From assembly GCF_022458985.1 (NCBI RefSeq), contig NC_061782.1:23015672-23079671 (forward strand): 64,000 bases of DNA. The letters are read 5' to 3'. The notes under the pieces were generated by a model that worked only from the letters and a program-made list of their open reading frames with translations, ran no database searches and was not told where the DNA came from. Positions 1,336 to 3,053 of the stretch are shown in pieces. Source of the stretch: Mugil cephalus. Lineage: Eukaryota; Chordata; Actinopteri; Mugiliformes; Mugilidae. Every line of letters begins with the position of its first letter. The stretch's first letter is position 1. Position numbers and translations under genes: made by a program.

Positions 1336-3053
1336 ATGAAATCTCATGAAGCTGGCATTTCAGGGCAAAAGGCAAGAAAGAAAAAGGGAAGAAAAAGACA
1401 AAGGATAAAAATATTTCTCTCTCTGTGTTGCTCTTTTCCAGATCCTGTGAAGAGTCGGCCGACACCATCGTCCAGCAGCACCCATCAACTGCACGACCAG
1501 GAGGTGAGGTCTATCCACCAGCACAGCACAGCACCGCCCAAAGGCCTGATACAGACTGACAGCCCAAACTTCCTCTGCAGCAGCCTGCCGCTGCACTGGA
1601 GGTGCAACAAGACCCTGCCGAGAGCCTTCACCGTGAGTAATCACTGTTTTAATTCAGTGTCAGAGGTCATTACAACATTTAGCCTACAGACTTGTTTCCA
1701 ATTTTTCAAACTCAGTGTACAAGGCATTTGTCCAACTCTTCAGGATCCTATTATTCCTCTGTCCTCCAGGTGGTTGCCCTGGACAACGACGTGCCGGATG
1801 GCGTGGTTGTGATAGTGATGGCTGGCAATGACGACAACAGCAGCGCCGAGCTACGGAACGCCACAGCAACCATGAAGCAAGGTTACGCCCACTTCAACGA
1901 CCTGCGATTCATAGGCCGCAGCGGCAGAGGTAGATCCACAGAGGGGCTACATACTCTAATATAATTTATTAGTGATGGGACATCAGCAACAGGCAACAAC
2001 TCTCCTTTTGTGTTTGGCCCTCTAATTTTTTGGAACTTTTCTAATTTAAATGGTTTATATTTACGGGAATAACTCATCTTTATCATGTATTATTATCCCT
2101 CTAGTATGATTTTCTTGGCTCATACTAATGAGGTAAGAGTTAGAGGCCAGAATCCTTGTCTTGTCTTTTACTCTGAGTATAAAGTGTGAACATGAATGAA
2201 TGAACATAAATAAGTGTTTGTATTACAGTATTTTAGAGGCTATGAAAATTTGCACACTTAAAGAAATGCTTTTTGATATCCCTAGATATTACATACACGT
2301 GTATGTGTTGCATCTGTCCTTTAGGGAAGAGTTTCACCCTGTCAATAAACGTGCTGACTTCGCCTCCTCAGATCGCCACCCTACACAGGGCCATCAAGAT
2401 TACCGTGGATGGACCACGGCTGCCGAGACGTCAGTAGACATCTGGGTGGGATGTGTGATGTTTTGATGTGGGATTATCAGAGTTGCCATTTATTTCATTC
2501 TCTCTTATTTTATTTCAGGACAGAGACAGAAGGAAGTGAAGTCAGGAGTGTTCAGGCCCTCCAGCAGCAACAACACTGCCTCATCAGGTATGAGTGGAGG
2601 GATGTTATGTAATCTGTACATTTTCATTACATTTTCAAAATCTACTACCTAAGATTCATGTGAATCTTCACATGCACAAACTGATGTATGCTCTGACGTC
2701 TCTCTTCAGATTGTCGATCTTTCTCCTCCTCTCTGTGGACCAGTGAGCCGTCGTTTTTGAGCCAGGTGACCTCCCTGACCTCCTCCTTTGCCCCAACTCC
2801 CAGAATGCATCACCTGCCTACCTTACCTTACTCCTCCCAGCCTCCCCCATACAGCTCCTACCTGTCCTCTCCTCCACCTCCATTGACCCACAATGGTCCT
2901 TTCCAGCCGCCTAGCAGCTTTTACTATGGGCCAAACCAACCGCTCCAAACTGCAGGGGAGGACCGCACCGTTGCCACACAAACACAAGCCAACTATCTAG
3001 AAGGGGCGTATCTTTCCATGAGAGGGGAGGAGCCTGTCTGGAGACCTTACTGA
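1336..3053 (+). CDS. Divergent runt-domain (RUNX family) transcription factor
   Basis: Sequence-specific nuclear DNA-binding protein of the Runx family, expected to pair with CBF-beta and recruit Groucho/TLE. Exons read as 1336 or 1442 to 1632, 1770-1929, 2325-2429, 2519-2587 and 2710-3053, all with GT-AG borders and matching phases. From the ATG at 1336 the product is 324 residues. The runt domain begins at [20 protein letters not shown] and ends at [14 protein letters not shown]; every base-contact Arg/Lys that I know from RUNX1 is kept. The C-terminus is VWRPY, the Groucho motif, and a PPPY motif lies in the proline/serine-rich tail. The tail after the runt domain is only about 135 residues, shorter than in Runx1-3. 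The N-terminus is uncertain: a strong acceptor (CTCTTTTCCAG, ending 1441) means residues 1-35 may be intron and the true start may lie upstream. Family call is firm; paralogue identity is not. Confidence 0.92.

Follow-up and report, generated by a model that had tools for sequence, protein, structure and literature searches.

A fast-evolving fourth runt gene in Mugil cephalus, very probably runx2a and an orthologue of pufferfish FrRUNT

We analyzed a stretch of 64,000 nucleotides from Mugil cephalus (the window; C13:23015672-23079671, in a 635-Mb genome of 24 contigs), at the left end of which lies a runt-domain gene. Our splice model of this gene comprises six exons with GT donors and AG acceptors, which encode 305 aa in a single frame over ~4.2 kb, with an intron 1 of 2,511 bp (Table 1). 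The Runt domain, called clear in an earlier note on this DNA, is indeed complete and lies on the + strand; it matches the Pfam Runt model at E 8.2e-62 and structure chains of RUNX1 at E 3.5e-59. The same note had read the N-terminus from an ATG at position 1336. We set this ATG aside as the likely start, since positions 1336-1441 read as the end of intron 1 and a first coding exon lies upstream that joins exon 2 at 1442 in phase, its end phase being that of runx2b exon 1. The frame from 1336 is nonetheless open into exon 2, and a second transcript may initiate there. The earlier note was right about the brevity of the part after the Runt domain, but this part is not unlike Runx: little is kept of the region between the Runt domain and the C-terminus, and the last exon encodes a shortened Runx C-terminus ending in VWRPY.

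Table 1. Coordinates of the runt gene and its right-hand neighbours
Feature	Window positions	Contig positions	Strand	Content and evidence
Runt gene, exon 1	-1118..-1070	C13:23014553-23014601	+	1.1 kb left of the window; encodes MASNSLFGSTSPMLYW, 16 codons
Runt gene, exon 2	1442..1632	C13:23017190-23017306 (Pfam Runt match)	+	Short leader and first part of the Runt domain; start phase as in runx2b exon 2
Runt gene, exon 3	1770..1929	C13:23017420-23017611 (Pfam match)	+	160 nt; central part of the Runt domain; exceeds the runx2b exon by one codon
Inserted asparagine codon	1785..1787		+	Between RUNX1 positions 95 and 96 (alignment)
Runt gene, exon 4	2325..2429	C13:23017995-23018105 (Pfam match)	+	Final segment of the Runt domain
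Runt gene, exon 5	2519..2587		+	69 nt; short linker 3' of the Runt domain; splice model
Runt gene, exon 6	2710..3053		+	Shortened Runx C-terminus: PRMH, PPPY, GPFQ and YYG pieces, VWRPY, stop
Follistatin-like gene, exons	4424..6961	C13:23020095-23022632	-	Tail to tail with the runt gene; Kazal domain; own-genome matches
Connexin exon	20609..20866		+	Pfam Connexin, E 3.1e-30

We then looked into the promoter region. Gnathostome Runx genes typically have two promoters, P1 and P2, and tandem Runx sites in the P1 promoter are typical of Runx1-3. The window gene has a P1-type exon 1 and the open frame from the ATG at 1336; no P2 start of the MRIPV type was recognisable. The 600 bp upstream of its exon-1 ATG hold no Runx site, single or tandem. 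Between -3400 and 1441 there are single sites but no tandem pair; in runx2b, by contrast, the pair AACCACAGAACCACAG stands in tandem at -396/-388 before exon 1. Zero single sites per 600 bp is unremarkable alone; the contrast with runx2b lies in the absent pair. Tandem Runx pairs have been tied to auto- and cross-regulation (PMC3974841). Exon 2 of the window gene contains no Q or A tract; a glutamine/alanine repeat is typical of Runx2 (PMC7738678), though it does not define descent from it.

On the left, the runt gene is interlocked with SUPT3H, which runs antisense and was named by an SPT3 homolog chain (E 4e-104): the first SUPT3H exon (23014659-23014754) lies inside runt intron 1, and runt exon 1 separates it from the next SUPT3H exon found. 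C13 holds all nine SUPT3H matches of the genome, and CDC5L comes next beyond SUPT3H (structure-sequence match, E 1e-105). A 40-kb stretch of the runx2b locus, 13 kb of which lie upstream of exon 1, gave only chance-level SUPT3H matches; SUPT3H remnants are kept in fugu (PMC533870). Linkage to SUPT3H marks Runx2 in human, shark and zebrafish, in the last case runx2a (PMC3974841, PMC4236176). Further left on C13, from ~81 kb to 31 kb from the window, there are Pfam matches to MCM and phospholipase C domains, and a beta-SNAP-like start without Pfam match can be seen by eye. We know of no association of MCM and phospholipase C genes with RUNX2, and the RUNX2-type synteny therefore seems to stop at CDC5L. 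At ~19 kb and ~115 kb to the left of the window are open reading frame pieces that resemble, by eye, transposon reverse transcriptases.

On the right, the follistatin-like gene (fstl1 in the earlier note) and the connexin were found downstream as that note had stated. The former matches the follistatin-related protein 1 chain 6jza at E 2.8e-20, an agrin chain scoring slightly better, and occupies the same place as FrFSTL6 of Glusman et al. 2004 (PMC533870). The genome has two follistatin-like copies, the second at C12:16923904-16927082. The earlier note had also held these neighbours to differ from the Clic genes of Runx1-3. No CLIC match was found on C13; the telling neighbours, SUPT3H and then CDC5L, are just left of the window. 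The rest of the window contains several tandem ORFs with immunoglobulin-type domains by eye (28694-31344, -), a 752-aa stop-free frame, the first 124 residues of which have no Pfam match at E up to 0.001 (34557-36815, +), a cytochrome c exon (47010-47321, -) and an exon of an RNA-recognition-motif gene (50538-50981, +), the last two identified with Pfam.

A Pfam Runt search of the genome gave 12 exon matches, three at each of four loci: the window gene on C13, runx3 on C17, runx2b on C21 and runx1 on C23. The runx2b gene has exon 1 MASNSLFSTVTPCQQNFFW, a P2 start MRIPV and its last exon at 14931083-14931523. We assigned C17 to runx3 and C23 to runx1 because of their first exons (MASNSIF...), the likeness of their Runt domains and their CLIC and RCAN neighbours (on C17, CLIC at 7.06 Mb and RCAN at 13.4 Mb; on C23, CLIC at 3.53 Mb and RCAN at 3.51 Mb), together with an MHIPV start on C17, the start named for teleost Runx3 (PMC4236176). 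The genome-wide search for CLIC yielded 35 exon matches spread over seven loci, all below the whole-protein cut-off, a level not to be expected of single exons; the RCAN search gave 5 matches at two loci and no third RCAN gene. A pattern search for MASNSLF (59 matches, against 11 for a reversed-pattern control) turned up an extra site on C5, which we regard as a chance match, having no visible donor and an early stop.

No CLIC, RCAN or ENPP match was found on C13 in the genome-wide searches. C21 keeps, beside runx2b, a CLIC at 14.94 Mb and an ENPP at 14.96 Mb that is nearer ENPP5 (E 5e-105) than ENPP4 (E 2e-78). At C23:9.55-9.56 Mb, an ENPP nearer ENPP4 (E 2e-95) than ENPP5 (E 6e-81) lies beside a CLIC5-like gene that, of all seven CLIC loci, is most closely related to the one on C21 (80/109 residues, FastTree support 0.90, C-terminal part only). 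We read this C23 pair as the detached half of one duplicate block that was broken directly behind the window gene, and the two duplicate blocks as showing complementary losses and retention, with CLIC and the ENPP5-like gene on C21 and the CLIC5-like and ENPP4-like genes on C23; the direction and date of the break are taken from the literature. A broken block with complementary losses was earlier proposed by Glusman et al. from fugu draft scaffolds (PMC533870). CLIC5 and ENPP4/5, missing on C13 and broken off in fugu and stickleback too, therefore do not define the percomorph locus. Comparison of 50 kb of the window locus with 264 kb around runx2b (blastn, E up to 1e-3) revealed no shared non-coding DNA beyond repeat-like sequence: of four matches, two were runt exons and two an inverted repeat-like match ~42 kb left of the window.

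We then analyzed the sequence of the Runt domain. Its identity to the other copies is 75-79% (runx2b, 88/116; runx3, 89/116; runx1, 88/117; mammalian RUNX1, 92/117), whereas the domains of runx1, runx2b and runx3 are mutually 89.7-96.6% identical. Among the four sequences other than the window gene, 104 of 118 alignment columns are invariant, and it is at such columns that the window gene has 18 substitutions and one inserted residue, with 6 further changes in variable columns; the earlier note's many substitutions in a near-invariant domain are thus confirmed. Private changes number 2 in runx2b, 1 in runx3 and 5 in runx1. Tajima tests with the paralogues as outgroups put the excess change on the window gene in 4/4 comparisons (p 0.002 to 3e-5), and the control, runx3 against runx2b, was even (2 to 2). 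Between the window gene and runx2b, dN is 0.22 and dS 1.4 (NG86), a saturated value that led us to discard silent-site dating.

The Runt domain by itself does not settle the place of the gene. In a tree of six sequences, all fish sequences from this one genome and no non-vertebrate outgroup among them, the runx1/root side was the best position; placement with Runx2 cost 1.3 log units under LG and 2.1 under JTT and was not rejected (AU 0.39, 0.38), and placement with runx3 was rejected (AU 0.006). The branch of the window gene was 0.34 long, and none of the others exceeded 0.05. A four-gene quartet of the Runt domain alone put Runx2 ahead by 0.15 log units. With so little signal and one very long branch, we gave up Runt-domain phylogeny as an arbiter. 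Exon 1 favoured Runx2 by 6.9 log units over runx1 and 6.3 over runx3, and the last exon favoured it by 1.4-2.0. When these two were combined with the Runt domain, Runx2 led the quartet by 6.2-6.5 log units (bp-RELL 0.91), neither rival being rejected at 5% (AU 0.099 and 0.056); without exon 1 the lead fell to 1.3-2.3. Exon 1 reads MASNSLF...W in the window gene and runx2b, against MASNSIF...R in runx1 and runx3, with nucleotide z scores of 5.4 (runx2b), 3.9 (runx1) and 2.0 (runx3). Shuffle z scores for the last exon were highest with runx3 (7.3), followed by runx2b (6.6) and runx1 (5.6), and the runx2b last exon as a query did not retrieve that of the window gene at E up to 10. At single positions, Val102, encoded in exon 3, agrees with Runx2, and Thr121 and Ile168 are runx1 states.

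None of the 11 DNA-contact residues that PMC11345852 lists has changed. Of the nine CBF-beta contacts scored, which are those named in passages of PMC2527000 and PMC11345852 out of a full set of 19, four are changed (Y113S, T149S, F153L and V159I), compared with 20/97 other positions and 24/117 overall. The contrast between the two kinds of contact reaches Fisher p 0.026, and depletion at DNA contacts (p 0.07) and enrichment at CBF-beta contacts (p 0.08) each fall short of this when taken alone. T149S and V159I, two of the four, are mild changes; T149A is hypomorphic in RUNX1 (PMC11345852). Residues 104 and 151, which belong to the surroundings of Phe153 according to PMC2527000, are likewise changed. 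A literature search returned nothing on CBF-beta double mutants.

We propose that the window gene is very probably runx2a, the second of the two Runx2 copies that the teleost genome duplication produced and the orthologue of pufferfish FrRUNT, and that it evolves unusually fast. In favour of this, SUPT3H occurs only on C13, CDC5L adjoins it, exon 1 is of the Runx2 type, the combined quartet and Val102 lean to Runx2, the Tajima tests show the excess of change, and a CLIC5-like/ENPP4-like pair is found on C23. Several observations from the genome point the other way, namely, the preference of the six-sequence tree for the runx1/root side by 1.3-2.1 log units, the runx1 states Thr121 and Ile168, the last exon with its highest z score for runx3 and its failure to be found with that of runx2b, the lack of CLIC, RCAN and ENPP on C13, and the genes left of CDC5L, which do not look like RUNX2 neighbours. 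The earlier note had considered an ancient fourth vertebrate Runx. Against this, synteny matches Runx2 and exon 1 is Runx2-type, and such a gene, pre-vertebrate or a fourth 2R paralogue and lost in tetrapods, would have had to replace the body of runx2a by recombination behind the Runx2 exon 1 beside SUPT3H, which was the preference of Glusman et al. 2004 (PMC533870). The Runt domain is about equidistant from runx1, runx2b and runx3 (75.2-76.7% identity), the six-sequence tree leans to the root side and the Runx2 signal is strongest in exon 1, all of which would suit such a replacement. Yet a long branch with a rate excess would look no different, the gene apart from exon 1 still leans weakly to Runx2, as does Val102, and the idea requires an additional recombination and an otherwise unseen gene. 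No FrRUNT orthologue is reported from tunicates, lancelets, hagfish or dogfish (PMC2265531), and the CLIC/RCAN paralogy block that a 2R Runx should own is missing on C13, which loss could explain too. We consider this origin improbable.

It is very improbable that the gene is a decaying or dead duplicate without a useful protein. It has shrunk and has neither a recognisable P2 start, a glutamine/alanine repeat nor tandem Runx sites, and zebrafish runx2a mutants are viable (PMC9718792), but the frame is open over six exons with GT/AG splice sites and an intact VWRPY end, the DNA contacts were spared while 24 of 117 positions changed, dN is 0.22 against a saturated dS of 1.4, and fugu, Tetraodon and stickleback have reported counterparts (PMC533870, PMC2265531). 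That the gene is a rapidly evolving Runx1 or Runx3 copy is less credible still: the runx1 states at two residues and the last-exon score with runx3 speak for it, and it has to contend with the rejected runx3 placement, the lack of CLIC and RCAN on C13, the SUPT3H interlock and the type of exon 1.

Under the runx2a reading, the ancestral block would have been cdc5l - supt3h - runx2a - clic5 - enpp4. A break just behind runx2a would have left the left half on C13, beside an unrelated follistatin-like/connexin segment, and the clic5-like and enpp4 genes on C23. The gene would have shrunk to its present size; it lacks a recognisable P2 start, the glutamine/alanine repeat, tandem Runx sites upstream of exon 1 and most of the mid-region, and retains the DNA-contacting residues, a PPPY motif and the VWRPY tail. 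VWRPY serves to recruit Groucho/TLE. Judged from its sequence, and with this role of VWRPY also named in PMC2674455, we infer a RUNX-site binder that has lost most activating sequence, keeps TLE recruitment and leans less on CBF-beta; it would activate weakly and may dampen or compete with runx2b. A more far-reaching proposal, which we regard as rather unlikely as a whole, is that a chromosome break directly behind runx2a in a percomorph ancestor cut off the downstream neighbourhood and that runx2a then became a compact counter-factor of Runx2, driven from P1 only and outside Runx auto- and cross-regulation, which would bind RUNX sites and recruit TLE via VWRPY with less need of CBF-beta and little activation region.

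The locus provides a chromosome-scale case for the old FrRUNT question and points to a fast-changing duplicated Runx2, not to an ancient gene, with the caution that a long branch should not be read as great age. It also shows how far the normally near-frozen Runt domain can drift with its DNA contacts kept, and a gene of such build would be a natural test of RUNX function with a weakened CBF-beta face.

The literature already contains FrRUNT, its possible identity as runx2a and the verdict for Runx2: Hecht et al. 2008, with stickleback synteny, took FrRunt for a fast-evolving Runx2, and added Fstl1, Gja5 and the stickleback orthologue to the FrRUNT arrangement of Glusman et al., which the window locus shares (PMC2265531). 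The passages of the FrRUNT literature covered make no mention of the absent tandem sites or the changes on the CBF-beta face of this gene. Compared with runx2b, the window gene shares the exon 1 MASNSLF...W, the exon-2 splice phase, the sites at which the Runt domain is split, the DNA contacts and VWRPY, and differs in 24% of Runt residues (28/116), including Tyr113, Thr149, Phe153 and Val159, and in lacking the tandem Runx sites, an MRIPV-type P2, the alanine tract and most of the region from the Runt domain to the last exon. Zebrafish runx2a is likewise linked to SUPT3H, which was lost at runx2b (PMC3974841, PMC4236176); unlike the window gene, it has been described as an ordinary Runx2 that differs from runx2b by 19% overall (PMC9718792), and Clic5 comes after it (PMC2265531, Figure S2 legend). 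The closest likeness, drawn from published descriptions, is to the fugu fourth runt gene, with which orthology, as suspected in the earlier note, is very probable from exon structure, asparagine insertion, SUPT3H interlock and downstream neighbours. FrRUNT and TnRUNT (PMC533870) and their stickleback counterpart (PMC2265531) have the same six exons and a 16-codon Runx2-type exon 1. FrRUNT is described as having one inserted asparagine after runt-domain position 47, as in the window gene (register inferred), a Runt domain about 72-77% identical to other Runx, the SUPT3H interlock, CDC5L upstream, follistatin-like and connexin genes downstream and no linked CLIC (PMC533870, PMC2265531). The two differ mainly in size, the window gene having 305 residues against 294, about 4.2 kb against 3.0 kb and an intron 1 of 2,511 against 1,372 bp.
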